A DNA stretch of 64,000 nucleotides from a virus: IMG/VR virus record IMGVR_UViG_3300008448_008004, positions 29,829 to 93,828 of that record. One strand, written 5' to 3'. This document shows, piece after piece, positions 331 through 31,400 of the stretch. The notes under the pieces were generated by a model. The model was not told the origin of the DNA. It saw only the letters and a program-made list of their open reading frames with translations, and ran no database searches. Each line of letters opens with the position of its first letter. Within the stretch, counting starts at the first letter, position 1. Position numbers and translations under genes: made by a program.

Positions 331-1089
331 ATGGATAAAAGTGCTCAATATGGTCAAATGGATTTTAATCTTCCACATGACGTTGTAAAATTACCATCCG
401 GAGGGATGTTTTATAAACCAAAAAAAGAAAGTTTAAAAGTTGGTTATTTGACCGCATCTGATGAAAATTTATTAATGTCCCCAAATACACCATCAGATGG
501 TATAATAAATAATTTGTTGAGGACAAAAATTTATGAACCTGGTTTTGATGTTGGACAACTTTTAGACGTAGACGTTCAAGCCATATTAATTTTTTTAAGG
601 AACACTTCTTTTGGTAATGAATACGAATTTTCAATTAATGACCCCAAGACTAATAAAAGATTTGATGCTAAAATCCTTTTGGATGAATTGAACTATATCC
701 CCATGAGTAATAAACCGGACTCTGAAGGATTATTTGATTTTGTTTTACCAAAATCGAGGGCACAAGTAAAGTTGAAACTTTTAACATTATCTGAAACAAA
801 TGAGTTAGAAAAGTTACAGGAAAATTATCCGCCAAACATGGTTGCTCCGGTTATAACAAAAAGATTAGAAAAACAAATTGTAGAATTAAACGGTGACAGA
901 GATAAACTAAAAATTGTACAGTTCGTTACTCAAATGCCTATTATTGATTCTAAGGAGTTAAGAAAATTTATTAGAGATTGTGAGCCCAAAATAGACTTAA
1001 AAAGAACAATTACCGCCCCGTCCGGAGAAAGAGTCACAGTTAATGTGTCTTTTGGGGCGGAGTTTTTTCGTCCTTTCTTCTCAATTTAA
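331..1089 (+). CDS. gp26-like tail/baseplate assembly protein
   Basis: This 252-aa protein resembles the T4_baseplate family (T4 gp26). The N-terminal motif L-P-S-G-G-M-F-Y is followed by G-Y-L-T-A-S-D-E-N-L-L, a region ending I-N-N-L-L-R, and D-V-Q-A-I-L-I-F-L-R-N-T-S-F-G-N-E-Y, all typical of that family. The middle is helical and charged. In T4 this protein is needed for baseplate hub formation. It lies immediately before the tape measure gene, the position held in other long-tailed phages by tail assembly chaperones. Its last residues (about A-E-F-F-R-P-F-F-S-I) overlap a second frame at 1043-1213 that continues in a family-like way, so a frameshifted longer product is possible. The start is the only ATG that includes the conserved N-terminal motif. 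Confidence 0.7.
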   Translation: MDKSAQYGQMDFNLPHDVVKLPSGGMFYKPKKESLKVGYLTASDENLLMSPNTPSDGIINNLLRTKIYEPGFDVGQLLDVDVQAILIFLRNTSFGNEYEFSINDPKTNKRFDAKILLDELNYIPMSNKPDSEGLFDFVLPKSRAQVKLKLLTLSETNELEKLQENYPPNMVAPVITKRLEKQIVELNGDRDKLKIVQFVTQMPIIDSKELRKFIRDCEPKIDLKRTITAPSGERVTVNVSFGAEFFRPFFSI

Positions 1090-1213
1090 ACAAATTTTAT
1101 TAGATGAAATATTTTATTTAACAAAATATGCAAACTTTTCATATTCAGATATTATGAAAATGCCAACATATGAAAGGAAATATTTCATAAATAAACTTTT
1201 CGAAAAACAATAG
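1043..1213 (+). CDS. Overlapping small frame, gp51-like or frameshift extension of the gp26-like protein
   Basis: An ATG-initiated frame of 56 codons overlaps the 3' end of the gp26-like gene by 47 bases in the +1 frame. The convincing part starts beyond the upstream stop codon: F-K-Q-I-L-L-D-E-I-F-Y-L-T-K-Y, then F-S-Y-S-D-I-M-K-M-P-T-Y-E-R, ending K-L-F-E-K-Q. This amphipathic pattern with a 'M-P-x-Y-E-R' turn is typical of small tail assembly proteins. The first dozen residues (C-L-L-G-R-S-F-F-V) look like a shadow of the other frame, which argues that the segment is either translated from the overlap start or joined to the upstream protein by a +1 (or -2) ribosomal frameshift. It fills the otherwise unexplained gap before the tape measure gene. 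I cannot separate the two models from sequence alone. Confidence 0.5.
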   Translation: MCLLGRSFFVLSSQFKQILLDEIFYLTKYANFSYSDIMKMPTYERKYFINKLFEKQ

Positions 1214-1220
1214 AAAATAA

Positions 1221-1228
1221 TATTTATA
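1221..1228 (+). promoter_or_regulatory. TATTTATA element before the tape measure gene
   Basis: An exact TATTTATA lies 7 bases before the ATG at 1236. The same element recurs upstream of most structural transcription units in this window. It may be the core of a late promoter, but the short distance to the start codon would give an almost leaderless mRNA, so a role in translation is also possible. Confidence 0.4.
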
Positions 1229-1235
1229 AAATAAA

Positions 1236-3032
1236 ATGATGTTTTTTGAGACAGAAGCAGGCGAATTAGGAAGTGCTGCTGGTAAAAATTTAAAGGAATT
1301 TGCAGATGCACTAAAAGGTGCATTAGAACAGTCTTTAAGTCCCGAAGGATTTGTCAAGGCCTTGACGGATGTTGAAAACCAATCAAACAAATTACAAAAA
1401 AGTATTGGGGGTGTTGTTATTGGTGCAGACCAATTTAGAGAAAAACTAATGGCCGCATACAAAAACACTCAAAACATGAATGCGACCTTTGCAGACACTG
1501 TAAATGCGGTTAAGGGTTTAGCTCAAGGTATGGGTAAATTTGTAAACCCATCACAAGAGGCATTAGAGGCGGTAGTTGGATTAGCCAAAGGTATTGGTGA
1601 AACACCTGAAAAGATTGGTGAAATGACTTCAAATCTAATGAGTTTTGGAGGAACCCAAGTAGAGGTTGTTGGTAAAATGAATGAAATTGCAAAAAGTGCA
1701 AGAAAAGCCGGACTTGATGCAAAAGGATTATTGGCGGACATAACAACTAACTTGAAAAAAGCATCAGGATTTGGTTTCTCAAACAGTGTGAAAGGACTCA
1801 CCGAAATGGCAAAACAGGCAAAACTTTTACGTACAGATGTATCATCATTAGGTGCAATGAGTTTACAAGGAAGTATATTAGACCCAGAAGGAGCAATAGA
1901 AGCTGCTTCCAAATTTCAAATGTTAGGTGGGCAAGTTGGAAAACTTGGGGACCCCTTCCAACTATTATATATGGCACAAAAAGATTTAGCCGGTCTACAA
2001 GATGAGTTAGTCAAATCTTCAAAAGCTGCATTTACGTTCAATAAAGAAACTGGAAACTTTGACATAGGAACTCAAGATTTATATAGATTAAGAGAACAAG
2101 CAAAAATAACAGGTCAAGATTTTGATGCCTTAGTTAATTCGGGTAAAGAAGCAGCAAAACTTGATTACCTTACCGAAAAATTTAACTTAAAAGGATTAGA
2201 TAAGGAAACTCAACAAATGGTTGCGGGGTTAGCTCAGATAGGTGAAGGAGGAAAAGTTGAAATAGATATACCTGGATATAAGAAAATTGAAGCAAACAGT
2301 GCGGAACAATTAAAGACGGCATTACAATCTGAGGATGTACAAAAAAAATTAAAAGAATATCAGGCTAAGGCCGACATGGACTCAAAAGACTTGGCTGTAT
2401 CTCAATTATCTGTCACAGAAGAGTTATCTGCATCCGCAAGAACGATAAGAGATGCGGTTTTATTACAATCGGGAGCAGTCGCAGAAACGGACAGAAAGGC
2501 ATTGTTAGATGGTTTAAGAACCGACGCTAAAGATGCTATTGACGCATATGGTAAAGTTGCAAAAGTTGCTCAAGACAAAACTTATGAGATTGCAAAAACA
2601 GGTGTTAGTGCTGTTGGTAAACAAATGGAAGATACTAAAGAAAGATATTCTAAAAACACAGAAAAAGAATTGTTAAAACAAAAAGTAGAGGGTAAGGAAT
2701 ATAAAGGTGAAGACACAGAAGTTACTGTAAAAGATGGATTATTTCCATCGGCAAATAGTGCCCCAACAATTTTAAGTAAAGGAGCAATTTATAAAGGTAT
2801 TGTTGGGGATGATGTTGCTGTTGGAACAAATTTAGGGGAGGCACTTAACAAAGCTGGTTCCGGTAATATTGGAGGAGCTATTGATATTAATATTAATTTG
2901 ACAGGGTCAATAGGTGGTGACCCAGGACAACTTACAAAAATGTTTAATTCACCACAAGTTCAAAAACAAATAATGGATACGGTCTTATATAAGTTGAATG
3001 ATTATAAAAAACAACAAGGGGTTCTTGCCTAA
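1236..3032 (+). CDS. Probable tail tape measure protein
   Basis: The 598-aa product is long, helical, low in aromatics and rich in Ala, Gly and Lys, as expected for a tape measure, and its length is close to that of T4 gp29 (about 590 aa). Recognisable blocks include a central F-Q-M-L-G-G-Q-V-G-K-L-G-D-P-F segment around residue 228 and a C-terminal Gly-rich part (G-G-A-I-D-I-N-I-N-L) followed by a terminal helix. Tape measure proteins set the length of the tail tube and pass into the envelope on infection. Its place directly after the gp26-like pair supports the call. The start is the first of two adjacent ATG codons; the second would shorten it by one residue. A generic coiled-coil baseplate protein is the alternative. 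Confidence 0.65.
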   Translation: MMFFETEAGELGSAAGKNLKEFADALKGALEQSLSPEGFVKALTDVENQSNKLQKSIGGVVIGADQFREKLMAAYKNTQNMNATFADTVNAVKGLAQGMGKFVNPSQEALEAVVGLAKGIGETPEKIGEMTSNLMSFGGTQVEVVGKMNEIAKSARKAGLDAKGLLADITTNLKKASGFGFSNSVKGLTEMAKQAKLLRTDVSSLGAMSLQGSILDPEGAIEAASKFQMLGGQVGKLGDPFQLLYMAQKDLAGLQDELVKSSKAAFTFNKETGNFDIGTQDLYRLREQAKITGQDFDALVNSGKEAAKLDYLTEKFNLKGLDKETQQMVAGLAQIGEGGKVEIDIPGYKKIEANSAEQLKTALQSEDVQKKLKEYQAKADMDSKDLAVSQLSVTEELSASARTIRDAVLLQSGAVAETDRKALLDGLRTDAKDAIDAYGKVAKVAQDKTYEIAKTGVSAVGKQMEDTKERYSKNTEKELLKQKVEGKEYKGEDTEVTVKDGLFPSANSAPTILSKGAIYKGIVGDDVAVGTNLGEALNKAGSGNIGGAIDININLTGSIGGDPGQLTKMFNSPQVQKQIMDTVLYKLNDYKKQQGVLA

Positions 3033-3069: not shown

Positions 3070-6000
3070 ATGGAGAGTCCACTATCATTTAATTCAAGTG
3101 AAAATTTTAGAAAAAAACTTTTGGTGCGTAATTTACCACCATATAAAGTTGATAATGCATTTTCCAATAATAGTAAACCTGGGTCATCTGAGTTTACAAT
3201 TAATGACCTTACACCAATTGATTCACCAAGCGTAGAACAAATCGGAAACCAACAAGAAAAAGTTTTATTACCAATAAATCAATACGGACCACAAAATAAC
3301 CAAGGTGACTTTGGTAATATGGTTCCAATAAATAATAACCTAAATTATAAATCAAACGAAGGTGTTTATGGATATCCCGACAGTATTGGAAGTGATTTAG
3401 AAGTTATTGGTAACAATACTGAAAAACAACTTATTATAAAAAATGTATATCGACCACAAAATGGTTTGGCGGATTTTGGCTCAACTGCTTGGTATATAAA
3501 TAATGATAAAGTAATCAACACAATAGGTGAAGGTGAATATACAATTCAAGACACTGTTGGAGGTAATTTAGAAACTACCGCAAATTTAGACAGACCTGTA
3601 TTGATAACTAATAATCAGTACGGTCCACAGCTTTTAACAAATACTGAAGTTCCAATTAATAACAACTATCAGACTAATCCAAATGAGGGTGAATATGGGT
3701 TTCCTGATACCTTTGGAAGTCAGTTAGAAACTGTTGGTGATACTGATAGACCTGTATTATTTGCTATTAATCAGTATGGACCTGATAATATACCAACAAA
3801 TGAAGTTCAAATTAATCAAAACCTTCAAACAAATTCAAATGAGGGTGAATATGGTTTTCCTGATACAGTTAATAGTGAACTACAATTAATTGGTGAAGAC
3901 GAAAGAACACCAAGTTTTTTACAAAACCCATATGGTCCTGAACAAGGGCAAAGTGTTTTTGAAGTTGACCCTTATAGAAAATTAAAAAATTTAATAATAC
4001 CGCAAGGAAATTATTTAGATGCTACAGATACTTTTGGTAGTGAATTAGAATTAGAGGCGGGTATAAAAGAAACTGAGGCATATATTGGAAATACTTACGC
4101 AACAGGAACAGGAGAATATGACCCAACACTTTTCAGATATTTACAGACAAAAGGTTTACAGTTACCTTACGCAAATTCAGATAACACATTTATATTTTTA
4201 CCCTCAACATATACACCTTATAGTATATTAATAAGTGATAATCCTAGTGGTTCTGATGGTACGTTATCAGAGGACTCAAGCTTAGCTGGTATTGGTGCAA
4301 AACAACTTAACAAAGAATTTAAACATAGAGTTGCATTAGAGTTATATCAACAAACATTAGGTCAAATAAATTTATTTAGTGGTAATGTAAATCCTGAAAC
4401 TGGTGAAATATCCGCAAACCCAAATACAGACCCATTCAATGCTATTGGACTATTAACGGGTAACGTTCCAATTATTGCAAGAAAATATAATATCACAACA
4501 CCTGACTTTTTATTTGGGCAAGGAATTAATTTTGCTGCCAAATTAGCAGGATTGTATTCACCATATTCTTATATCCCTGGTGAATATTTTGACTATCCTA
4601 ACTCGGTAGGTAATGGGCCATATCAGAATCCACTATCTTTAATAGGTGGGGCATTAGGTTCATTATTCAGTGCATTACAACCAGCTAATCAATCATCATC
4701 TGAATTATTAGTTGAATACACATCAGTGGCAACAAGAAAATTATTATATGACCAATTAAGATATAATATTTATAGACCTAACTATAAAATAGGTAATAAT
4801 TTATTGGCACCTCCGGGTTCATTTTACGTTGGTGATAGAAAGAATCATTTAACTGAATTAGTTTCACCGGCACCTTTTTTACCATATGGTAGAGATGGTA
4901 AGACATCGGCTATGGGACCTGTTCTTTCTTACTCAGATATGGGTAAGTTATATGAAACTTCTCAACTTGACGACACTCAGTTTGGTATTAATAGTAGAAA
5001 CTTATATAGTGCAGGCGCAACTAGAGATGGGGTAAAATGGATAGGTAGTAATATTTCGGGTGGGTTAACTTGGATTGGTAGTAAAAGCCCCGACCAACTT
5101 AACTGTCCTTTACCTGGAAAATTAGTAGGTAGAGGTAATCAAGAATTTGAAGATAATAGTGAATTTAATTTTAATAATCTATCGGGGTTCGATAGCACTA
5201 AATCCACAAATAATAATTTTACACCAGGGTCAATACTTGATGTGACACAAAAGTTAATTGACGCGGGTGAAAGAAGTAGTAGTAGAGAACATGTCGGAAA
5301 GGCTATTAATCAAGTATCTAAAGTTTTTAACGACGGATACCAAGAAATAACAAAAGGTTCAAGAGTAGTAAGATACACGACAAAAAATTCAACAGGTGGT
5401 GGTGATATTAAAGGTTTAGAATATTGTAGAATTTTTACAAAAGACAGGCCTTATTACACATATGATGAATTACAAAAAACAGATGGTAATATTAGAAAAT
5501 ACACAGATTCGGTTTTAGATAATACTTGGAATTTGAACATAGCACCTGTTGATGGATATAGTGTCAAAGACGGTAAAGTTAAAAAATATATGTTTTCATT
5601 AGAAAACTTAGCTTGGAGAACTTCAAATAAAAAAGGTTTCACCTATGAAGATTTACCTGCTTGTGAAAAAGGACCTAACGGGGGACGTATTATGTGGTTT
5701 CCACCTTACGGATTAAGTTTTGATGAACAAATTTCGACAGGATGGAATGAAAATACGTTTTTAGGAAGAACAGAACCAATTTATACATACACTAATACAT
5801 CAAGAAAAGGTAATTTATCATTTAAAGTGATTGTTGACCACCCATCTATATTAAACTTAATAGTTGATAAGGAGTTAGAAAACGTAGGAAATAATGGAGA
5901 AATTACTCAAATTGTCGATTCGTTCTTTGCGGGTTGTACAAAATACGACTTATGGGATTTAACAACAAAATTCCCTATGTTTACACCAAATGATGTTTTT

Positions 6001-9000
6001 GAAACTCAAATTTTAACAACGGAAGATATTGTTACAGTAGTCGAAGAACATAACTATACTACAATAGAAGAAGAGGTAGATATAGATGATGATTATATTC
6101 CACCAACAGAAACACCACCATGTACTGTTTATCATTATGAAATTGGAGTTAATACTGATTTAAAATATACTGCATGTACGGGAAATGAAATTACTTTATC
6201 ATTGTCAGGAGGTAATAAAGGAGACATTTGTGTTCAAAGAGGAACTACACCTCAAATTATTACACCGGACCCGACAAATACGGTTACACCAACAGGTGAT
6301 GAATGTACTAGTACGACACCTAATCCAACTCCGACACCATCTCCAACACCAACACCAACACCAACGGAACCACCATTAAAAACAACGTTTCCCGATATTG
6401 GATTTTATTTTGATAATAATTTCCCCGATGGAACTAATAATAGAGAGGGGGTAACTGTAGATAAGGACTTTAAACATTGGTATGATTTATATATTGCTTC
6501 AGAAAACCAATACGTAAATTTAGGTAAAAGTGGAAGTTATTCGGCAGCATTAAACAAAATTGTTATTTATGGAGACCCCACATATAAAGATTATACTAAT
6601 TATGTAACAAACCAATTACCAAATGATGCTAAAATTAAATACCTAGATAGTTTTGTTGACACTAGAAAAGACAAAATATCAGAATTTTTTGGGTATATTA
6701 AAAAAGAATTTGAAGAAGCAAAAAAATTCATTGAAAAAATTGGACCTCTATTAGACGCTGGTGACACAATTTCATTTGATTTAGTTGCAAGTGCTTCGGC
6801 GGTTAATGATAACGCTTATAATATTAATTTATCTAAGAGAAGATATGACTCCGTTAAAAAATGGATTTATGCTCAAACTTCACCAAATGGAACTACAATG
6901 GAAAAATATGTCCAACAAGGTAAATTAAAAATCAAAGAATCTACAGTTGGTGAGGACACAAGTCTTGTCGATGAACCTTATAAATTCATTAAATGTAGTA
7001 AAGATTTTCAAGACAGACAAAAAGACGGAACTGTTTCTGTTAACGCTATGGCTTGTAGAAGAACAAAAATTTCTAACATAGAAAGAACCAAAAACGTTTC
7101 TCAAAATGAAAACCCAACAAATACTGAGTCAAGTAACGTAGTAACAAATAATGGTGACCCATCACAAACAAACCAACAATTGGCTGGTCAAGATTTTATT
7201 ATTACAGGTCCTGCAGGTCAAGAAAGTACAGGACAAAGTATAACACAACCTAACTCATCTTCACAATCATTTGTTTCACAATCACCAGAATCGCAACCAT
7301 ATACCAATAGTATTAATACAAGACCACAAGATGTCCAAACACAAACTTTTGAAAAAAGAAAAGATTTAACAAAAAGATTAGCAAGAAAACTTTTAACTGA
7401 GTGTAACTATTTTGAATATATTCAACAAAATGCCCCGATGATATACGATGGAATAAAATCTAAAATAAAATATTTCCAACCGGCATTTCACTCAATAACT
7501 CCTGAAGGGCTTAATTCTAGATTAGTTTTCTTACAACAATGTATGAGGCCTGGTGATACCATCCCTACAATTTCTGAATCAAATGGGGGTCAAGTTAAAC
7601 TACTTTACAATGACGTATCAAATAGTGCGTTTGGGGCTCCACCAATCTGCGTATTAAGAATTGGTGATTTCTTTCACACTAAAATAGTAATAGATGGTTT
7701 AACCTTAAAATATGATGAAGTACCATTTGATTTAAATCCTGAAGGAATTGGCGTCCAACCAATGATTGCGGATGTTACGGTTTCTTTTTCTTTTATTGGT
7801 GGACATGGATTGGCGGAACCTGTCGCTAAATTACAAAATGCATTAAGTTTTAACTATTATGGTAATACTGAAATGTATGACGAAAGAGCCGAATCCACGT
7901 CTCAATTAGATTTAAGTCAATATGATGCACAAATAATATCACAAATAAAAGATGAGTTAAATGTCGTTGACACATCAGCCACAAGACCTACGGTAAATGA
8001 TGGTGGAGTAACCATTGGTGTTACTAAAACTAACACTGTTGATTTAGTAACTTCAGCAACAACCGGAACTATCACATATAAAGACATTATGTCAAAGTTA
8101 GTGGACTCTACTAAATCATATGTAGAAAAAACAACATCTACTTTAGAAAAAATTAATCAAGAATATTTAATTGGGGGTCTTCAAATATTCACTAAGGATA
8201 GAAAATATACAGACGGGTTTTTCAATAGTTTAGGTGGTGATTTATCAAACACGGCTAACATATTTGGTTATGCTAGTACAATACAAGATAAATTAAACGA
8301 TTTAGCAACTAAGACTAAAGAAGATATAGATAACGACTTGTGTCCTTTATTACCTACAGTATATAATCAAAATTTGACCGACATACAAATTAAAAAAATT
8401 AAAAAACAATTAAAAGATAATATTGATACGAGAAAGAACGAAATGACAAATGCGTTAGAGAATTACTCTAATGAAATTTCAACGAATGAATTAGATTTAA
8501 TTAGTTTAATTGATAAAATTAGTTTTGTTTCTAATGGACATGACGGGTTTATAAAGAAAACCTTCTCAACTGTTGTTTATAATCTTTCAGGAACAACAAA
8601 GGTTACCCAACCAACATTACCTAATGTTGTGGACACACTACAAGAATTGGTTTTAGATTCATATTTAGTAAAAGATGATATGAATACATATTATCAAAAA
8701 CTTTCTGAGTTCTCTTTAATTCCTACAGGTGATGATGTTTATAGTAGTAATTATACTCAGAACACTTATTTACCTGAAAACAAACCTGGAGACACTAGAT
8801 TTTTTATGTTATTTGGTAAACCTATTATTGATAACCCTGATAAATTTGTAGATGACTTAATTAACAAAGCAATACCAAACGCTAACCAACAGGACAAAGA
8901 TGATTGGTTTTTATATTTAATGAATAATGTGAAAAATCCAAATAAAGGATTGCAAAATGCTTATTTAGCTTCTATGGTTGAAGTTAATAATAAAATTGAA

Positions 9001-9189
9001 AAATTCAGAACAGAATACTTTAATTCTACATTTACCAATTATTTACCTTATAATAAAGATAAAGAAAGGTTAATGTGGTATCAATCACAAGTACCGGCTA
9101 ACTCAAATGATAGTAGAGATTTGTCAAATTTATACAAATCAATTAATAGTGGAGGAGATAAATTTAATTTGAAAAAAAAGTTTAAATAA
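3070..9189 (+). CDS. Giant baseplate/tail-tube-initiator-like protein with OmpA-like domain
   Basis: At 2039 aa this is far larger than any T4 hub or tube-cap protein. Residues about 45-340 hold five copies of a unit of roughly 55 residues marked by N-Q-Y-G-P and E-G-E-Y-G-F-P-D-T (near 70, 125, 182, 234 and 287). Around 877-925 a block with W-F-P-P-Y-G-L-S-F and G-R-T-E-P-I-Y-T-Y-T-N-T-S-R resembles baseplate proteins that start the tail tube. A PT-rich linker (about 1084-1101) leads to an OmpA-like segment (about 1108-1330) with F-Y-F-D-N-N and N-L-S-K-R-R-Y-D-S-V. The C-terminal third (about 1531-1597) has a tube-like beta pattern (I-V-I-D-G-L-T-L-K-Y-D-E-V-P-F-D). The gene overlaps the next by one base (TAATG). 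I infer a fused baseplate component; no enzymatic motif is visible. Confidence 0.6.
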   Translation: MESPLSFNSSENFRKKLLVRNLPPYKVDNAFSNNSKPGSSEFTINDLTPIDSPSVEQIGNQQEKVLLPINQYGPQNNQGDFGNMVPINNNLNYKSNEGVYGYPDSIGSDLEVIGNNTEKQLIIKNVYRPQNGLADFGSTAWYINNDKVINTIGEGEYTIQDTVGGNLETTANLDRPVLITNNQYGPQLLTNTEVPINNNYQTNPNEGEYGFPDTFGSQLETVGDTDRPVLFAINQYGPDNIPTNEVQINQNLQTNSNEGEYGFPDTVNSELQLIGEDERTPSFLQNPYGPEQGQSVFEVDPYRKLKNLIIPQGNYLDATDTFGSELELEAGIKETEAYIGNTYATGTGEYDPTLFRYLQTKGLQLPYANSDNTFIFLPSTYTPYSILISDNPSGSDGTLSEDSSLAGIGAKQLNKEFKHRVALELYQQTLGQINLFSGNVNPETGEISANPNTDPFNAIGLLTGNVPIIARKYNITTPDFLFGQGINFAAKLAGLYSPYSYIPGEYFDYPNSVGNGPYQNPLSLIGGALGSLFSALQPANQSSSELLVEYTSVATRKLLYDQLRYNIYRPNYKIGNNLLAPPGSFYVGDRKNHLTELVSPAPFLPYGRDGKTSAMGPVLSYSDMGKLYETSQLDDTQFGINSRNLYSAGATRDGVKWIGSNISGGLTWIGSKSPDQLNCPLPGKLVGRGNQEFEDNSEFNFNNLSGFDSTKSTNNNFTPGSILDVTQKLIDAGERSSSREHVGKAINQVSKVFNDGYQEITKGSRVVRYTTKNSTGGGDIKGLEYCRIFTKDRPYYTYDELQKTDGNIRKYTDSVLDNTWNLNIAPVDGYSVKDGKVKKYMFSLENLAWRTSNKKGFTYEDLPACEKGPNGGRIMWFPPYGLSFDEQISTGWNENTFLGRTEPIYTYTNTSRKGNLSFKVIVDHPSILNLIVDKELENVGNNGEITQIVDSFFAGCTKYDLWDLTTKFPMFTPNDVFETQILTTEDIVTVVEEHNYTTIEEEVDIDDDYIPPTETPPCTVYHYEIGVNTDLKYTACTGNEITLSLSGGNKGDICVQRGTTPQIITPDPTNTVTPTGDECTSTTPNPTPTPSPTPTPTPTEPPLKTTFPDIGFYFDNNFPDGTNNREGVTVDKDFKHWYDLYIASENQYVNLGKSGSYSAALNKIVIYGDPTYKDYTNYVTNQLPNDAKIKYLDSFVDTRKDKISEFFGYIKKEFEEAKKFIEKIGPLLDAGDTISFDLVASASAVNDNAYNINLSKRRYDSVKKWIYAQTSPNGTTMEKYVQQGKLKIKESTVGEDTSLVDEPYKFIKCSKDFQDRQKDGTVSVNAMACRRTKISNIERTKNVSQNENPTNTESSNVVTNNGDPSQTNQQLAGQDFIITGPAGQESTGQSITQPNSSSQSFVSQSPESQPYTNSINTRPQDVQTQTFEKRKDLTKRLARKLLTECNYFEYIQQNAPMIYDGIKSKIKYFQPAFHSITPEGLNSRLVFLQQCMRPGDTIPTISESNGGQVKLLYNDVSNSAFGAPPICVLRIGDFFHTKIVIDGLTLKYDEVPFDLNPEGIGVQPMIADVTVSFSFIGGHGLAEPVAKLQNALSFNYYGNTEMYDERAESTSQLDLSQYDAQIISQIKDELNVVDTSATRPTVNDGGVTIGVTKTNTVDLVTSATTGTITYKDIMSKLVDSTKSYVEKTTSTLEKINQEYLIGGLQIFTKDRKYTDGFFNSLGGDLSNTANIFGYASTIQDKLNDLATKTKEDIDNDLCPLLPTVYNQNLTDIQIKKIKKQLKDNIDTRKNEMTNALENYSNEISTNELDLISLIDKISFVSNGHDGFIKKTFSTVVYNLSGTTKVTQPTLPNVVDTLQELVLDSYLVKDDMNTYYQKLSEFSLIPTGDDVYSSNYTQNTYLPENKPGDTRFFMLFGKPIIDNPDKFVDDLINKAIPNANQQDKDDWFLYLMNNVKNPNKGLQNAYLASMVEVNNKIEKFRTEYFNSTFTNYLPYNKDKERLMWYQSQVPANSNDSRDLSNLYKSINSGGDKFNLKKKFK
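6319..6372 (+). repeat. PT-repeat linker tract
   Basis: The DNA encodes an alternating Pro-Thr/Ser run inside the 2039-aa baseplate protein, separating the tube-initiator-like part from the OmpA-like domain. It is built from near-identical CCAACA/CCGACA hexamers, like the tracts in the fibre genes at 40.9 and 48.4-49.0 kb. Confidence 0.85.
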
Positions 9190-9506
9190 TGGACTACTAT
9201 AACAGATATAAGGATTTTTTAATTAATGGGAAGCAAACTGTTGTTCCATTTTTAACTATTCCATCTAGAGTTACCGACCAACAGTATCTTTATAGGTCAG
9301 GTCAAAGTCGATTAGATAAAATTAGTTTTGAAAAATATGGAACACCTTATTTCGGATGGTTAATACTTGCTGCTAACCCAATGTATGGCGGATTAGAACA
9401 AAACATACCAGATGGAACTATTTTAATAATCCCATACCCATTAACCGCAGCACTTCAAGACTACAAATCTTCATTAGATACACATATATTCTATTATGGC
9501 CGTTAG
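9189..9506 (+). CDS. Baseplate wedge protein gp53-like (LysM fold)
   Basis: This 105-aa protein has the layout of T4 gp53: an aromatic N-terminus (M-D-Y-Y-N-R-Y), then S-R-L-D-K-I-S-F-E-K-Y-G-T-P-Y-F-G-W-L-I-L-A-A-N-P and I-P-D-G-T-I-L-I-I-P-Y-P. The 'D-x-I-S-x-x-Y-G ... N ... I-P-x-G' pattern is the LysM-like fold shared by gp53 and related baseplate proteins. In T4 gp53 joins wedges to each other around the hub. The gene starts within the stop codon of the upstream gene and its 3' end overlaps the next gene by 11 bases, which indicates translational coupling of a baseplate operon. T4 gp53 is about 196 aa, so this is a short version. Confidence 0.7.
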   Translation: MDYYNRYKDFLINGKQTVVPFLTIPSRVTDQQYLYRSGQSRLDKISFEKYGTPYFGWLILAANPMYGGLEQNIPDGTILIIPYPLTAALQDYKSSLDTHIFYYGR

Positions 9507-12500
9507 ACAAAAACAAAATAAAAAAATTTACATTGAGACAGAATACGATAATATCGTTATTGTAAACCCAAACGAAGTTTTTACTCCTGATGGTAACAAA
9601 GAAGAACGCTTAGTTGACCACGAAGATTTGGTTTATTATGCAAATTTAGAAACATTTATTATACCTAGAACAAAATTGGCGATAGGACAAAGTTTTACTG
9701 ACCCTGTTTTTAATACAACAATTGCCACAATTTTTAAGGGCGATGATGCCCTTAAAGTTAATTTTTTAAAACCAAAGGGTAAAACTGAATTTGATACTAG
9801 TTGGTCTAATCAATTAACAGGTGAAGGCTCAAGACAACAAATGGGAGCCAATCAAACATCTGAAAGGGTTGTTAGTAATGAAGGAAGACAATCATTTCAA
9901 AGGAGCGTAAAAAATAATGAAGATACACAATTATTAGGTATTAAATCTATTAGAGTTAATATTAAAGGAACTGGAGTTCCTGAGGTTGCGATTGAAATGG
10001 TTGACATACAAGGTAGGTCTTTATTTGAACAGGGTGAGAATTCATTGTATTCTGCATTTTTTAACTTTCCATATCCATTATTTTATTTAACCCTTAAAGG
10101 TTATTATGGTAAGGCGGTCAGATATAGACTATCTTTAATGTCTTTTAATGCTTCTTTTGATGCTGATACTGGTAATTATAATATTTCACTAAAATTAATT
10201 GGTAAGTTCACCGCACTTTTATTTGACACACCATTGTCTTACGCGATAACTGCACCAAAAATGTATAATACACAGATAACCGTAACAGAGCCAAACGGTA
10301 ACAAAAGTTATTTCAATACATATAAGGGAAGACAAAAACTAAAAGAAGTCTACGATATATACAAAAGAAAAGGATTAATTTCTTCAGACTTTCCGGTTTT
10401 ATCTATAGAAGATTTTGTACATAGGGTAGAAAATTACAAAACAGGTTTAAAGGCCGACTTAACTAAACAAGAAGATTTTACAAAATTAAATGATTTACAA
10501 GATTTTGCAGACAATTTAAATAAATTAAAAACTGAAGTATTTGAATATGCAATTAATAATTACTTAGATAGAAGTAGTTACTACATTGTCGGACAAGAAA
10601 TTTATTACCCATTTAAAAAAGAAATCACATTTGAATCAAGAGAACTTTTTAAAACAAAAATTAAAGATAGAATACAAAAATATGTTTCATACTTAAAAGA
10701 AAATGCGACATTTGGGGAAGGAAAAAGTGCCGAATACCAAATCAACATTACTGTAAAAAATGAAAAAGACGTATTAAGAAAGTTAGATTTTAAAACTTGG
10801 TCGGACAATCAAGAAAATGTTAGAAACACTTATCAATCAAGGTATAACAAACCGTTAACATCAACAGACACTGAAGGTTATGAAAAGTTTGTCAGAGATG
10901 AAACTTTAACTGCCGTTTTAGATACTAAAGTGCAAAATGAAAATGGTGATTGGATTGAAGATAAACCCGATTACTTTGTTTTTGGTGATAAAATTATTTC
11001 AGACGGAACTTTTATAAAAAATTCATATTTAGACAAACTGGATGGCATGACAACTAGTTTAGAGGCTAAACAAAAAATCATTGAAGATAGATTAACTAAA
11101 TTTTATGCTGAACAACAATTAAAACAACCCACAAAGGGAGGTGGTGGATTAGGGTTTAAACCAACAATAAGAAATATTTTTGCGGTAATAATGGCAGGTG
11201 CTGATGCCTTTTACAGATTAATGGAAGATAATCATCAGGAGGCTTGGAATGTTAGAACTGAAAAAGATAGGTTATTGGCAGTTATACCTGCAGAAAAAAA
11301 CTTTTCAGTAGACGCTTTAAAGAGTATACAAAAATCTAGTGGTGAATTAAATGATGACAATGTTGTTTACCCATGGCCTTTATATTTTACTTTAGAAAAA
11401 CAAGAAAGTGGTTCTGACCTGTATACTATACAGTATCCTGGAGATGCAAAATACATTAGACAAACTAAAGCGTACGATTATAGAATTTGGCCTGAGGTTG
11501 GGTTTACAGAAGCCTTTATTAAGGCGTCTTTAGAAAAAGAAAGACCCGAATCAAATTATTCATATGATAACCCAACAGATGTTACAAAATACGTATCTTG
11601 TGGAGCGTTAGAGTTCCCTTTCAAAACCGCACCTTATCAAGATTTAAATGCGATTAAAATATTTTATGAAATTTTTGAAAGAACTTATTTAAGCTCACAT
11701 TACGGAAATTTACCTAATAATGTTGCAACAAAAAATCAGATAGATAAATTTTATGGTGATATAGAAAGTTTAAATTTAAGTTTAATTGCACCTGAAGATA
11801 TTACTTTAAATCAAACCCTTAGGAATTCAAAATTCAACATGCAAAAACTTGTTGAATATATGAAAGTAATATCTAACAATGGGCAGGGACAAAGTTGGCA
11901 AACATATATTAGGGATATTTTTACAACCGAGTATATACAAAATTTATTAAAAACTATTAATGAAATCTATTCAATTGACACAATAGAAAGTAGTTCCACA
12001 CAAGTTTCCGCGGATTTACCTTTGATAAAAAATATGGGTGAGTTTTTAAATGATAGTGCGACTTCTCAAAAAAATAGATTGGACACATACCCATTTACTG
12101 ATGTTAAGTGGTTAAAAAATAATATGTCTAATGGTAATAAAATTGAAAAATATGAAGACTTTAATAATACAACTAATAGTTTTGTTTTTTTAGAAAATAA
12201 AAAAACAATTGCAAGAACTACAAGTAAAAATAATTACAACAATTTAAAACTTTTTACAAGTCAAACTGTTTTTGAAAATCAAAACCAACAAAAGTTTACA
12301 AACTCCAGTAATCCCGAACAAGTCATAAATTCACAATTGGCTCTCAAAAATTATTTTGAAAATAGAAAACAAAAAGATTTATATCTTACAGAATCTTACA
12401 TTGATTATGGTTCTAGTTATAGCGGTAATTTAGGAACATTTATACAAACAACATCATTATTAAACACACCATATTTTGTAAATGCATTGACTGAAGGGGT

Positions 12501-15500
12501 AAAAAAACAAAAAAGTAAAAAATCAAACCCATATGCTGCTCTTGGATATTTGTTTCTTAATTCATTACCACTTATAACAACAAAGGAAAAAATAAAAAAT
12601 TTCAACGGAGTTGTTGCTACTGATTTAGATTACTTAGCCGCAACCTTCAACAAATTTTCTTCAATACACCAAGTTCCATATGCTTGGGTATTAAAATACG
12701 GCTCAATTTGGCATAGATATAAAAACTATGTTAATAACAAAATTGATATTTTAGATGATGTATGGAAAGATTTTGATTATGCAAAATCATATGACCCTGT
12801 TAGTGGTAATTCTTATACAAATTATACTATTCTTGATTATAGTGGAAATCCAAAACAAATATCATTACAAAGAGTAGAACTTTTGGGGGCATTCCCAAAT
12901 TTCACACAAAGAACCGATATTTTTAATACGGGATTTTATCCACAAGTGGTTAATTCTGTTGAGTACTATCTAAACGGGAAAGATTTATTTACAGGATATA
13001 CTGCAAATGATTTTTCAAACGCATATAAAAAGAAAGGGTTTAGAATTGGTTTTACAAGTAAATCATCAAGTAGTTTTCCAAAAGGGTTTGACCAACAAAA
13101 CAATATAAGGACACTAATAAAAACAAATGCATATGTATATAGAGTCGATAGTGGTGATACAAAAACACCTGGTAAAAAAATAATAATGTACCCATCCATG
13201 GGTGCCGTTCCGTTTGACCAAGCAATTTTTGAATGTTTTAACGATACTAATGAAATAACAAAAGATATCTATGATAACAAATCAATGTTTAATGGGACTG
13301 TAAGAACACTTTGGGGGGCATCACATTTTGGTTATTTTGATAATTCTTTAATAAAAAAACCAAAACCTACTGAATATCTAAAAGTAATCAAAACAAATAC
13401 CGATTCACAAAATGATTTTGATATTACAAATAACCAATCAACATATTCTTTGATTGAGGAAATTTTTAATTTATTTGATGTTGATTTATTAGATAAGATG
13501 GAGGCTAAGTTTTTAACGTTTTGTAACCCAACACCATCGGCAAATGATTTGATATTAAATAGTGAAAACATCAAAACATCTTACACAAGTAGTGGAGGAT
13601 TAACAAATGCAAATTTAAAATTATTAAAAAGTCAAATAAGTGGTTTATTCACCTATAGAACCATGTTTTTTGATGGTACAAATGAAGAAAACGATGGTAA
13701 CATGTTAATTGATGACCAATTACAAACAATGTATACAACACTTAAAGAGTTTTTAAACTTTGATTGTGTTATAAAAATTGGTAACCCAACACAATTTGAT
13801 AGAAAATTATTTGACTCATTCAGTAACCTGACTCAAATGCAAACTGTGGACAAATTAACTTTTGATAGTTATATCGCCAATAATTTACCAGGGGACGGAA
13901 CTCCAATTACTTTGACACAAAGTTTAGCTAAAAATTCTGAAGCTTGGAAAGCGCTTAGAAAATATGTTGGATTTTCATCTATCAATGGGATTGATTATCA
14001 AAATCAAGTTGATAGTGCGTTTCCTTCAGTTAGTGGTATTACAACCGCAGCAACACAATCAGTACAAGTACAATTTATTGGAGATTACTCAACTCAATTT
14101 CCGGCAAATTCAGGAACTACAGATATTATTAACGTCCAAAAAACAGATGGTACTTATCAAGTTTTTAGAATTATAGGTGAAGCAAATCCACAAGATATCA
14201 AAACCAAACTTCAAAATATTAAATTCTATCAACCATACTCAAATATTGAAGACAGTTCAAATACGGTTCCCTCAACCACAGAAAATGATTTTACAACAAA
14301 TTATCAGTACGTTTCAACAATACAGGACATTGCGCCTGGAGATTACCAAATGGTTATTACGTATATACCAAACTTACTTCAATTAACTCCGATAAAATTA
14401 ATAGCCGCGGTCTCAACATTTCCTGGAATTCAAACGACAAATCCTTTTATTACAACACCATTCTCATTTCCACAACCATTTCCTAATACCGAAAAGTCAT
14501 TTGTTTCTGATTTCTTTTTTGATAACAATATAAAATTTACAAAAGAAAATATTGAAACACTTTACCCATTAATAAGATTATATTCAGAATTAAAACGAGA
14601 AGATAAAACTTTTGATAAAAACAAATTTACAACTTATATTAATGACTTTCTTTTAGACAGGTATGATTTACAAAATAAGATGGTAAATGAAACTTTTAGT
14701 AATTTAAATAAAATATTAAAAAATATTGAGGTTGATTTAGGTTTACCTAAAACTGCAATGAATGGAGATACAACAAAATTATCAACATATAATACATTAA
14801 AAGGTTTTAATGATAAATGGATTGCGGGTTCTGATTTAAAAACAAATACATTATTTGAGGATTTCTTATTTATGGATAGAGCAAATAGTGATTTAGGAGA
14901 TAGTTTTGTTTTAGATGTTGAAAAAGTGGTAAGTAGATTATCCATAGACACTAATCAAAATCAAAGTTTAATGTCATTGGTTAGTTCAATTTTGGAAGAT
15001 AATTTTTTTATTTTTATGGCAATGCCCGCTTACATTAATTTTTATGGAATCCAACAAGCCGCAAAAAAACCAGAGGCGTTAAGGGATAGTGAAATTGGTA
15101 ATAGTTTATTTGGGACTTATTTAGAAGTGGATTATACCAAATCAAGTCCAAAATTTTTATGTCTATATATTGGTAACCCTTCAGAATATCCTAAACCAAA
15201 AGAAAACACTTTTAATAGATTTGGTGACGATAGTTTTGATTTAAGAGTTCCTGATAATCCAGTAAGAAGGTCAGACCCAAATACAAATTACTCACTAAGT
15301 AATCGTGTTGTTGGATTTGCGGTAGATTTTGGAATTAGAAACCAAAACATATTTAAAAGTTTGAGTTTAGACATGTCAGAAATGAAAAATACTTCAGAGT
15401 CATTTAAAGTTTACGCTGATATGGGTAGCTCAGTTGCAGGGGATAAAGTTGGTCAACAATCACAATCATTATATAGTATATATAAATCTAGGTCATATGC

Positions 15501-16461
15501 TTGTGGGGTAACATCTATGGGTAATGCCATGATACAACCAACTATGTATTTTATTTTAAGACACGTTCCTATGTTTTATGGACCTTATTGGATTACAGAA
15601 GTAAACCATAATGTGACAGAAAGAGGTTTTGATACTGATTTTAAAGGAACAAGAATTCCTAAATATGCATTACCACAAGTTGATAATTTATTGGCGTCAG
15701 TTAATAAAGATGTTATAAGTAAAATTAAAGAAATTGCGGCAAAAGATAAAAAACCAAAAACACAACAAAGATTAGATGAGGAAAAATTGTTAAGTGAAAA
15801 TCCAACAATAAATACTTTAGCGGGAAATGATTCAGATTGTAAAGATAATATCCCAACACCATATATAAATATACCTTTTGAAGACCTCACACAAACAACT
15901 TTTACTACAGAAGACATTTATCCTTTAATAAAACAAGCAACAACTGACACTAATATGAGGGCACTTATTTGGGGTATTGCTCAAATTATGACTGGTACTA
16001 CATTAAATAATGACGTTTATAATTGTATTAATAATAATCCATTCGAGATTAACACTGAGAGCTCATGGCCTGGAAATTTAAATTCATATATTAAAAAACA
16101 ATCATGCGTTAAAATTGCCAACAATTCATTAAGATTAGTAAAATTTGATAATCTTTCAGAATCAATTGCATTTATGGCTTCTTTTATGAATGAAGTTGTA
16201 AAAAATAATGTCGAACCACTTAAAACGTTAAATGTTGATACAGATATAAATAAAAGTTACGGTAAAGCTTTATTCCAAATAGCTTATACTACGTGGTTAA
16301 CACCATTGGCGTTTACCAATTCATTAAATTCTGAAGGAATTAAAGATACCACTGTAAATGATTTTTCAGAACCAAATGGAGACTATAGTGTGAACACTTA
16401 TAACCTTTTTGTTAGCGTATTTACTAATGCTTATGAATATTTTAAACAAAACCCAAATTAA
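9496..16461 (+). CDS. Giant baseplate hub-like protein
   Basis: The 2321-aa product is the largest in the window. Near residues 148-241 it carries I-R-V-N-I-K-G-T-G-V-P-E-V-A-I-E-M-V-D and L-K-G-Y-Y-G-K-A-V-R-Y-R-L-S-L, a beta-rich block reminiscent of tube-adapter and baseplate hub proteins. Around 2024-2060 the sequence F-Y-G-P-Y-W-I-T-E-V-N-H-N-V-T-E-R-G-F resembles the hub motif 'G-x-Y-x-V-x-x-V-x-H'. The last 180 residues, after a charged linker, form a separate domain containing N-N-N-P-F-E-I and a helix with L-S-E-S-I-A-F-M-A-S-F-M; that layout recalls glucosaminidase or transglycosylase-like folds, but I cannot identify catalytic residues. The start overlaps gp53 by 11 bases. Function as a hub or spike carrier is inference from size, position and these motifs. 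Confidence 0.55.
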   Translation: MAVRQKQNKKIYIETEYDNIVIVNPNEVFTPDGNKEERLVDHEDLVYYANLETFIIPRTKLAIGQSFTDPVFNTTIATIFKGDDALKVNFLKPKGKTEFDTSWSNQLTGEGSRQQMGANQTSERVVSNEGRQSFQRSVKNNEDTQLLGIKSIRVNIKGTGVPEVAIEMVDIQGRSLFEQGENSLYSAFFNFPYPLFYLTLKGYYGKAVRYRLSLMSFNASFDADTGNYNISLKLIGKFTALLFDTPLSYAITAPKMYNTQITVTEPNGNKSYFNTYKGRQKLKEVYDIYKRKGLISSDFPVLSIEDFVHRVENYKTGLKADLTKQEDFTKLNDLQDFADNLNKLKTEVFEYAINNYLDRSSYYIVGQEIYYPFKKEITFESRELFKTKIKDRIQKYVSYLKENATFGEGKSAEYQINITVKNEKDVLRKLDFKTWSDNQENVRNTYQSRYNKPLTSTDTEGYEKFVRDETLTAVLDTKVQNENGDWIEDKPDYFVFGDKIISDGTFIKNSYLDKLDGMTTSLEAKQKIIEDRLTKFYAEQQLKQPTKGGGGLGFKPTIRNIFAVIMAGADAFYRLMEDNHQEAWNVRTEKDRLLAVIPAEKNFSVDALKSIQKSSGELNDDNVVYPWPLYFTLEKQESGSDLYTIQYPGDAKYIRQTKAYDYRIWPEVGFTEAFIKASLEKERPESNYSYDNPTDVTKYVSCGALEFPFKTAPYQDLNAIKIFYEIFERTYLSSHYGNLPNNVATKNQIDKFYGDIESLNLSLIAPEDITLNQTLRNSKFNMQKLVEYMKVISNNGQGQSWQTYIRDIFTTEYIQNLLKTINEIYSIDTIESSSTQVSADLPLIKNMGEFLNDSATSQKNRLDTYPFTDVKWLKNNMSNGNKIEKYEDFNNTTNSFVFLENKKTIARTTSKNNYNNLKLFTSQTVFENQNQQKFTNSSNPEQVINSQLALKNYFENRKQKDLYLTESYIDYGSSYSGNLGTFIQTTSLLNTPYFVNALTEGVKKQKSKKSNPYAALGYLFLNSLPLITTKEKIKNFNGVVATDLDYLAATFNKFSSIHQVPYAWVLKYGSIWHRYKNYVNNKIDILDDVWKDFDYAKSYDPVSGNSYTNYTILDYSGNPKQISLQRVELLGAFPNFTQRTDIFNTGFYPQVVNSVEYYLNGKDLFTGYTANDFSNAYKKKGFRIGFTSKSSSSFPKGFDQQNNIRTLIKTNAYVYRVDSGDTKTPGKKIIMYPSMGAVPFDQAIFECFNDTNEITKDIYDNKSMFNGTVRTLWGASHFGYFDNSLIKKPKPTEYLKVIKTNTDSQNDFDITNNQSTYSLIEEIFNLFDVDLLDKMEAKFLTFCNPTPSANDLILNSENIKTSYTSSGGLTNANLKLLKSQISGLFTYRTMFFDGTNEENDGNMLIDDQLQTMYTTLKEFLNFDCVIKIGNPTQFDRKLFDSFSNLTQMQTVDKLTFDSYIANNLPGDGTPITLTQSLAKNSEAWKALRKYVGFSSINGIDYQNQVDSAFPSVSGITTAATQSVQVQFIGDYSTQFPANSGTTDIINVQKTDGTYQVFRIIGEANPQDIKTKLQNIKFYQPYSNIEDSSNTVPSTTENDFTTNYQYVSTIQDIAPGDYQMVITYIPNLLQLTPIKLIAAVSTFPGIQTTNPFITTPFSFPQPFPNTEKSFVSDFFFDNNIKFTKENIETLYPLIRLYSELKREDKTFDKNKFTTYINDFLLDRYDLQNKMVNETFSNLNKILKNIEVDLGLPKTAMNGDTTKLSTYNTLKGFNDKWIAGSDLKTNTLFEDFLFMDRANSDLGDSFVLDVEKVVSRLSIDTNQNQSLMSLVSSILEDNFFIFMAMPAYINFYGIQQAAKKPEALRDSEIGNSLFGTYLEVDYTKSSPKFLCLYIGNPSEYPKPKENTFNRFGDDSFDLRVPDNPVRRSDPNTNYSLSNRVVGFAVDFGIRNQNIFKSLSLDMSEMKNTSESFKVYADMGSSVAGDKVGQQSQSLYSIYKSRSYACGVTSMGNAMIQPTMYFILRHVPMFYGPYWITEVNHNVTERGFDTDFKGTRIPKYALPQVDNLLASVNKDVISKIKEIAAKDKKPKTQQRLDEEKLLSENPTINTLAGNDSDCKDNIPTPYINIPFEDLTQTTFTTEDIYPLIKQATTDTNMRALIWGIAQIMTGTTLNNDVYNCINNNPFEINTESSWPGNLNSYIKKQSCVKIANNSLRLVKFDNLSESIAFMASFMNEVVKNNVEPLKTLNVDTDINKSYGKALFQIAYTTWLTPLAFTNSLNSEGIKDTTVNDFSEPNGDYSVNTYNLFVSVFTNAYEYFKQNPN

Positions 16462-28464: not shown

Positions 28465-31400
28465 ATGACCAAAAGCTATAGGATAAGAACAGCACCTGGA
28501 ACTGACAAAAACATAAGAGTTAATATCAACCAAGATTTTGACTTCTTGGAAATTTTATCATTAAAATTAAGACAAGAAGATGTTTATACTAGATTCTGTG
28601 CTGACTATGGTGTTGTAACAGGTAGGGTCATTGTAAATGGTGGATACGGTGTCCCAAACGCCAATGTATCAATTTTTGTTCCTTTAGATAGTGTTGATGA
28701 AAATGACCCAGTAATTTCCACACTTTACCCTTATAGGAATGTAGACCAAAAAAATGAAGATGGTTATAGATATAATCTTTTACCATATAGAAAAGAATAT
28801 GACGGGCATACACCAACAGGAACATTTCCCGATAGAGAAGATATTTTGACAAGAACTGAAGTTTTAGAAGTTTATGAAAAATATTACAAGTATACCGTAA
28901 AAACAAATGAAAGTGGTGACTTCATGATTATTGGAGCACCTCTTGGTTTGCAAACATTAACTTTAGATTTAGACCTATCAAATATAGGTTGTTTTTCTTT
29001 AAGGCCCGCCGATTTAATTAGAGCGGGTTTGGGAACTCCCGAACAATTTAATGGAGACCAATTTAAATCGTCAACAGATTTAAGTTCGTTACCACAATTA
29101 GTCAACATAAGACAAGATATTGAAGTTAGCTCTTTTTGGGGTGAGAATGAAATATGTAATATTGGTATTACAAGAGCGGACTTTGACCTTCGTGATTTTG
29201 GAATTGAAATTAAACCACATGCTATTTTTATGGGGTCATTATTTTCTTCATCCGATGAAGACTTCTTAAAAACAAATTGTAAACCAGGAAAAGACACGGG
29301 TAAACTATGTGATTTGGTAACGGCACCTGGTAGTATATTAGCCGTTAGACAAACTATTGATTACGATGCGGATGGAAGACCTATTCTTGAAAGATACACG
29401 TTACCTGACGGAGGAAAAGTTATTGATGATGAAGGAACATGGTTGGTTGAAGTTCCTATGAACTTGGACTATGTTACCACAAATGAATTTGGTGAACAAG
29501 TAATATCTAATGACCCAAATGTAGGTATACCAACAAAAGGTAAATATCGTTTTAGAATTCAATACCAAAATGAATCTGGTATGGCAAATTCCATAATGAG
29601 AGGTGACTACTTGGTCCCTAACGTAAAAGAATGGGGATGGTCGTTAAATAACGATGACGAACCAACAGATTTAAATGCCCAACTATATTCATATGCTTTT
29701 AGTTTAGATTGGAATGATTATGGTGATGATACCACAACTATTGGTCAACAAATGATACAAGAGGCTATTGATTGTGAAGATAGATTCTATGAGTTTAATT
29801 ATAATAAGGTTTATACAATTTCAAACTTTATTGATAGATGGAAATGGGGAGCAAATAGATTAAAACATTTAGGTATTAAAGATATTACTGATAGAACTTG
29901 TACTAATACTGTTAATAAGTTTCCTGTTAATGATGGTGTAAGAAATTTTGATTTTTTGGTTTTTATTATGAACCTATTAATCACAATTTTAACACCACAA
30001 TTTGTTAGTCTTATCGTAATATTACACGTCTTAGCCGTATTATATCCTGTTCTTAGAGTTGTTATTAATTTGATTTTATGGATAGTTAATACTTTAGTTT
30101 ATGCGATATGTATTGTTGTAGCGGCACTTAGTAAAAAACTTAAAAAGGAAGATTGTAAAAAACAAAATATCCAACCATTAAGTAAGGATAATCCATTCAA
30201 AAGAATTTCATTGCCGATGATGTCATATCCTGACTGTGAAGCTTGTCCTTGTGAGGATGTGGAGTTAGCTGAAGGAGATACGGGATTCCAAGAGAGTGCA
30301 ACTATAACAATATCGGCAAATAACTTTAGTCCATTATCTGATTTAAGTTCTATTGCATCATTTACATCATACAATAGTGCTCAATCGGTAAATTCGTCAA
30401 ATCCTGAATCTTTTAATAATGGAATAAGACAAGTATTTGCGGGGTATCAATACCAATCATTAAATAATAATTTTGATAAATTAATAAAAACCCCAATTAC
30501 TCAATTTCCAGTTCAAGGTGCCGTTACATGGGCTGGATTTGATGTTCAATTGGCTCAGTCAATGAACTTAGCTAATGTTAGACAAAGGTATTTTGATGGT
30601 GAAAACCACATTAAAACAACGGTTAGAAATATTAACCCATCAACAAATCTTGTCGACCCATCAACTACTTTTGATGATAGTGTGTTGATTATTTTATGTG
30701 ATTCAGGAACCATTGCAAATTTACCAAATTCACAGTTAGTAACATTCACAGATTTAACAACCATTAATGACCCTAACGTTTCTGGTTTATCAACAACAAA
30801 CCAATTTAATACAAACAATGTAACGGGTTCAACACCGTATAACGCAACGGGATTAGTTAATAAACAAATTAATTGGATTGGAACAGGAGGGACTGTTCAA
30901 AATGGTATATTAAAATTAAGTATCACTGAAAATGGTAAAGAGTATAAATTTAAAGGAGGTGTGGAATACTTCCAAGTTTTAACAGGAGGAACAATACAAC
31001 AATTCTCAGGAATTACAAACACCACAGGTGGACTACTTAATAAGTATTTATTTCAAAAAACACAAGCATATACATACGGTGGATATTTATCATTTCCCGC
31101 AGTGAATGAATATGTTTTCCCGATTAAATTTTTAGATGGATTTGAAGATTTAGAAATAATAATCCTATCAAGAGGAGTTGACCCATACACCCAAAAACAA
31201 AACATTAGATACGACTTATCAAGATTGTTTGGTTATTCTTTTGGTTCAGGACCGGTAATTGAGGGTTCATATTATCTTAATATCCCAATTAAGCCAAACA
31301 CAGGGCCTGCAACAAGTTTTTCTTTTTACCCTTGGCATAGTTCATATATTACACCAGAAACGCATAAAATTACAGATAACACCAACACATCCCTTTATCA

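Follow-up and report, generated by a model that had tools for sequence, protein, structure and literature searches.

A T4 gp26-type gene just upstream of a probable tape measure gene probably encodes two tail assembly chaperones through a +1 ribosomal frameshift at TTT_CGT

The 64-kb stretch of viral DNA analysed here (the window; positions 29,829 to 93,828 of the 93.8-kb IMG/VR virus record IMGVR_UViG_3300008448_008004) begins with genes for a phage tail on the plus strand. The C-terminal part of a gp19-type tail tube gene (1-237; phrog_4542, tail tube, E = 1.7e-11) lies immediately upstream of an open reading frame (ORF) of the T4 gp26 type (331-1089, stop codon 1087-1089), the 252-amino-acid (aa) product of which matches PF12322 (E = 2.4e-8; 34.4 bits, above the curated cut-off of 24.5) as well as columns 10-234 of the 282 columns of the phrog_150 profile (E = 5.3e-16). 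Overlapping its end, a second plus-strand ORF of 56 aa (1043-1213) runs in the +1 frame relative to the gp26-type gene, and directly downstream follows a probable tape measure gene on the same strand (1236-3032; phrog_788, tail protein, E = 1.7e-4), whose positional equivalent in the immuto phages is annotated as tail tape measure protein. The gp26-type gene is thus placed between the tail tube and tape measure genes, as expected of a G/GT-type pair. An earlier note on this DNA had described the two overlapping frames and had read them as a tail-assembly-chaperone frameshift; the ORFs are as described, and the reading is supported by comparative evidence in that the +1 frame and the junction are kept among relatives and the start codon is not. 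With a probability of roughly 0.87, estimated from sequence comparisons, this one gene gives rise to two tail assembly chaperones by programmed +1 ribosomal frameshifting at TTT_CGT (1066-1071, plus strand).

Scanning viral contigs with the gp26-type protein yielded 80 loci, among them 41 distinct sequences with a readable junction, and two further scans, seeded by the C-terminal domain and without selection on gp26, provided 106 distinct junctions, 49 of them of the window type; these counts and those given below are of distinct but related sequences, not of independent events. A DNA-level search of phages with the junction gave chance matches only. The +1 frame passes the gp26 stop in 41/41 of the gp26-found loci, and in all 106 domain-found junctions the domain is in the +1 frame of a long upstream ORF, never in frame with it and never at -1. 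The frames meet in a junction element (TTT GGG GCG GAG TTT TTT CGT CCT TTC, 1051-1077, plus strand) whose codons GGG, TTT TTT, CCT and TTC are invariant in all 41 gp26-found sequences. At the junction itself, TTT_CG[TGC] is present in 41/41 gp26-found and 49/49 domain-found loci, and the longer motif TTT TTT_CGN CCT TTC in 48 of the latter, the remaining one having CCA.

The choice of codons at this site is unusual. While the arginine at the shift site is encoded by CGT, CGC or CGG in 41/41 sequences, arginines at other conserved gp26 columns of the same set are encoded by AGA or AGG (144 cases), CGA (7) or CGT (5), and in no case by CGC or CGG. Elsewhere in these gp26 genes phenylalanine is encoded by a mixture of TTT and TTC, proline and glycine codons vary, and arginine is nearly always AGA. 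CGN accounts for 75 of the 537 arginine codons across the 36 main ORFs of the window (19,886 codons) and is hence rare, and the in-frame motif TTT_CGN occurs in these codons just once, at 1066-1071. No phage tRNA genes were found in the 64-kb window. The site therefore has what marks a UUU_CGN shift site, i.e., the in-frame motif, a rare codon in the A site (CGT, 1069-1071) behind TTT in the P site (1066-1068), and a downstream ORF at +1, and a conserved TTT TTT_CGN with a rare arginine codon is the arrangement expected of a +1 slip in the P site, from UUU to UUC, during the wait for a scarce tRNA.

Two other slip sites had been suggested in the earlier note. The heptamer TTTTTTC is indeed present at 1063-1069, but it does not join the frames, since a -1 slip there goes in the wrong direction for a downstream frame at +1, for which the conserved site is the TTT_CGN at 1066-1071; a slip in the T/C-rich run up to ATTTAA was rejected because this stretch differs among relatives, in which TTT TTT CGN is constant. 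The run of six T (1063-1068), which is invariant in the window group, might instead cause RNA polymerase to slip and to produce an mRNA one base shorter, so that the frames would be joined without any ribosomal shift. However, this would leave the rare A-site codon without a role, and in the sister group of Flavobacterium phage immuto the frames meet in the same way at TTTCTTTGG in 28 of 65 distinct relatives, where runs do not exceed three; polymerase slippage is thus very improbable. The smooth read-through between the two frames would also fit a sequencing error or a recent pseudogene of what is truly one continuous frame, but this explanation is hardly credible: the +1 break recurs in isolate genomes and in over 100 distinct contigs, which come from unrelated samples, and the codons at this position are invariant.

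Beyond the shift site, the +1 frame encodes a conserved domain of about 47 aa of the type LLDEIYYLxKYxxFSYSDIMxMPTYERKYFIxKL, which in the window comprises 47 aa and the stop codon TAG (1070-1213, stop at 1211-1213, plus strand); under the proposed shift, nucleotides 1070-1086 would be used by both frames. Past the gp26 stop, the +1 frame has a ratio of non-synonymous to synonymous polymorphism (pN/pS) of 0.37, against values of 1.34 and 1.00 for the remaining frames, so that by this measure purifying selection is acting there on the +1 frame only. In line with this, amino-acid variation in the +1 frame of the immuto group amounts to 2.43 bits at offset -2 and to 0-0.3 bits at offsets -1 to 3; judged from these alignments, the constraint starts abruptly at the slip.

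The simplest alternative, also raised in the earlier note, is a separate small gene within gp26 that starts at the ATG at 1043, or at a TTG in relatives, with coupled re-initiation as the mode of translation and no fused protein being made. Some upstream ATG is found in 17/41 relatives, and three loci, L181, L185 and L087 (LR756511), encode the domain in an ORF of its own that starts with ATG, indicating that the linkage has been lost or altered at times. However, the start positions vary, and since 24/41 relatives have only TTG or GTG upstream, the ATG at 1043 appears to be a local accident. In addition, the +1 frame of 14 distinct window-type junctions contains none of the codons ATG, GTG and TTG between the preceding stop and a point well inside the conserved domain, and the same holds for 14 distinct immuto-type and eight distinct marine sister sequences; a separate gene with standard starts cannot account for these 36. 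In L439 and L440 the +1 frame opens merely one or two codons ahead of the shift site, the immuto group shows free variation of the +1-frame residues that precede the shift site, and in T4 gp51 a gp26-like domain is fused to this very domain. A separate gene is therefore quite improbable, and an overlapping out-of-frame ORF with a conserved shift site and without a conserved start is what is found in G/GT pairs. The alignment of homologues that had been proposed as a check accordingly shows overlap and shift site to be kept in 41/41 sequences, with the three loci named above as departures.

Some further observations concern this domain. In L181 and L185, the separate domain ORF bears a new N-terminal extension (in L181: MENIDNLLREIQSTENGRQFLG), and in L009 (about 4759-5710) the +1 frame continues without a stop into tape-measure-like sequence to give 334 aa, either by a deletion fusion or in a chimeric assembly. 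The domain (L018, 4740-4889; L170, 2695-2889) also resembles Pfam DUF6760, a small protein found in contractile injection systems, at sub-threshold level (E = 0.017-0.03); the assignment was rejected as being below the Pfam cut-off (E = 0.017), and contractile injection systems may have a counterpart of the same chaperone extension.

Sister groups have other putative shift sites. In the immuto-type group (Flavobacterium phage immuto, Microcystis phage Mel-JY01 and contigs), the domain is in the +1 frame in the 65 distinct junctions, which read TTT CTT_TGG or TTT TTT_TGG CCT GAC, and in Bacillus phage SP-15 the junction is TTT TTT_CAC. In cyanophage-type relatives (80 loci, L225-L304, with 43.8-100% identity to P-SSM2 gp26), it is the -1 frame that encodes this domain, and 60/60 distinct junctions have T_TTT_TTC or T_TTT_TTT in phase; the -1 arrangement is also found in P-SSM2 (L200), S-PM2 (L201), HTVC008M (L202), Cr30, phiM12, phiW-14 and Atu_ph07. 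A -1 frameshift is therefore likely, on sequence grounds, in this very common group, although the case is less clear-cut than that for +1 because many of its members also have an ATG near the stop. In Agrobacterium phage Atu_ph07 (L088), for example, the gp26 end is accompanied by a -1 domain-like ORF that has CAT TTT TTC as well as a start in an overlapping GCATGA, which makes both a shift and re-initiation possible.

The relation to T4 gives the two products their probable identity. T4 gp26 and gp51 each match PF12322 and phrog_150 along their length, gp51 being about 47 residues longer; by these profile matches the two are paralogues, and gp51 consists of a gp26-like domain plus the present C-terminal domain, which is absent from gp26. 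Joining the two frames in the window extends the match to phrog_150 from columns 10-234 to columns 10-277 of 282 and raises it from 59.9 to 72.1 bits; the gp51-type extension (columns 235-282) is reached by the frameshifted product only, at a gain of 12.2 bits. The domain profiles of the +1 and -1 groups match each other (hhalign probability 94.5%, E = 8e-8), and the profile of the -1 group has T4 gp51 as its top match (hmmsearch E = 1.7e-6) and leaves gp26 unmatched. This chain, from the +1 group via the -1 group to gp51, suggests that the product of the frameshift has its in-frame counterpart in gp51. The downstream frame, called a gp51-like gene in the earlier note, corresponds to the C-terminal residues of gp51 (about 47) only, the gp26 domain being common to gp26 and gp51. 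A T4 match to the 47-aa domain at 3657-3731 was rejected as chance.

While T4 has two full copies, the non-T4 genomes examined have one full gp26/gp51 gene each, and the window's family gene is likewise the only one in its whole 94-kb record. Second matches to the family in most of these non-T4 phages are the out-of-frame extension, and Campylobacter phage NCTC12673 shows a second match that is weak (E = 5e-4). With a single family gene in the record and in most non-T4 phages examined, no other source of the long form is seen.

For the short form, AlphaFold gave a model (63 sequences) with a predicted local distance difference test score (pLDDT) of 83.6. Its best match in the PDB is YqbN (3KLU; Z 6.1, root-mean-square deviation (rmsd) 3.5 over 85 residues), which we take to be a member of the phage tail assembly chaperone family, followed by the HK97 tail assembly chaperone (2OB9; Z 5.5, rmsd 6.2 over 93 residues) and then by an unrelated protein at Z 2.4; Z scores of 5.5-6.1 are below 8 and not in themselves proof of a shared fold. 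The two best matches, which were not chosen by hand, agree and, as far as a model can indicate, point to a tail assembly chaperone. It might be objected that the frameshift is real but its products are structural parts of the baseplate hub, as there is a report of T4 gp26 as a component of the hub (PMC3004832) and databases name the family baseplate hub. In the same review, however, gp26 and gp51 are both classed as chaperones of hub assembly, gp51 being absent from the particle (PMC3004832), and both the gene position and the fold matches favour tail assembly chaperones, so that purely structural products are unlikely.

From these comparisons we infer that shifting takes place in the cell and that both products act as chaperones. 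The majority of ribosomes would terminate at 1087-1089 and release the 252-aa short form, equivalent to T4 gp26. A fraction would pause while UUU (1066-1068) occupies the P site and the rare arginine codon CGU (1069-1071) the A site; the peptidyl-tRNA-Phe would then re-pair on TTC (1067-1069), skipping one base, and decoding would resume with GTC (1070-1072), giving a 293-aa long form as the equivalent of gp51 with its C-terminal extension. If the pair works as lambda gpG/gpGT does, the tape measure protein might be coated by the domain common to both forms, and the extension of the long form, the rarer one at the efficiency assumed here, might recruit or license another tail component; this division of labour is suggested by the lambda system.

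Like lambda gpG/gpGT and P2 gpE/E+E', the present gene would thus provide a short and a frameshift-extended long protein with a small C-terminal extension, and it adjoins the tape measure gene as well. It differs from them in that the shift is +1 at UUU_CGN and not -1 at a slippery heptamer X_XXY_YYZ, and no sequence similarity to these proteins was found, the gene being of the T4 gp26 type. As the -1 heptamer is usual but not universal in G/GT pairs, it is not a defining feature. With T4, the family (PF12322, phrog_150) is shared and the short and long forms resemble gp26 and gp51 with its extension, respectively, but T4 has two diverged paralogous genes on opposite strands where there is one gene here. 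The motif itself has a parallel in influenza A PA-X, which shifts at UCC UUU CGU (PMC8310308) and shares with the window (UUU UUU CGU) the UUU_CGN, the rare A-site codon and the P-site move from UUU to UUC. UUU CGN is also mentioned in connection with frameshifting in papers on amalgaviruses, and plant amalgaviruses share it as a +1 motif; both are, however, eukaryotic RNA viruses with eukaryotic ribosomes and unrelated proteins. The immuto-type sites CUU_UGG and UUU_UGG resemble bacterial prfB (CUU_UGA) in the kind of P-site re-pairing, but they have a sense codon in the A site and no clear Shine-Dalgarno-like stimulator 3 nucleotides upstream. Finally, a +1 shift has been reported as very likely for the tail chaperone of the archaeal myovirus HSTV-2 (PMC5009743), which belongs to another virus group.

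Several points weigh against the proposed frameshift. The window itself has an ATG at 1043 and 24/41 relatives have a TTG or GTG, fusion is not universal given the three loci with a separate domain ORF, and the sequences counted are related to each other, as stated above. No conserved RNA structure was found 3' of the shift site (mean minimum free energy z-scores of -0.6 and -0.4), a direct comparison of the 47-aa domain alone with T4 gp51 gives no significant similarity and intermediates are needed, and the fold matches are of the modest strength given above.

Further downstream of the tape measure gene, the window contains two giant ORFs (3070-9189 and 9496-16461; 2039 and 2321 aa), the first of which has a Pro/Thr-rich linker and is without a clear PHROG match.

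Tail chaperones made by frameshifting have previously been regarded as a widely conserved trait of long-tailed phages; a 2016 review of frameshifting describes G-T shifting in these terms with the words 'except T4' (PMC5009743), in agreement with the earlier note, by which a programmed shift would be unexpected for T4-like phages, and searches of the open-access literature gave no paper that describes frameshifting in gp26/gp51 genes. Given the paralogy of gp26 and gp51, the gp51 extension and the fold matches, the T4 chaperones 26 and 51 look like a G/GT pair split apart. It is rather probable that a frameshifted pair, now using +1 sites (UUU_CGN, CUU/UUU_UGG) or -1 sites (U_UUU_UUY), is ancestral to the T4 superfamily and that T4 exchanged the shift for a gene duplication. 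The present finding would extend UUU_CGN +1 shifting to bacteria, namely to environmental phages of a common group for which the annotations examined here miss the long protein and, if true, would make UUU_CGN a +1 recoding motif of bacterial viruses that is convergent with that of influenza A virus and the amalgaviruses.
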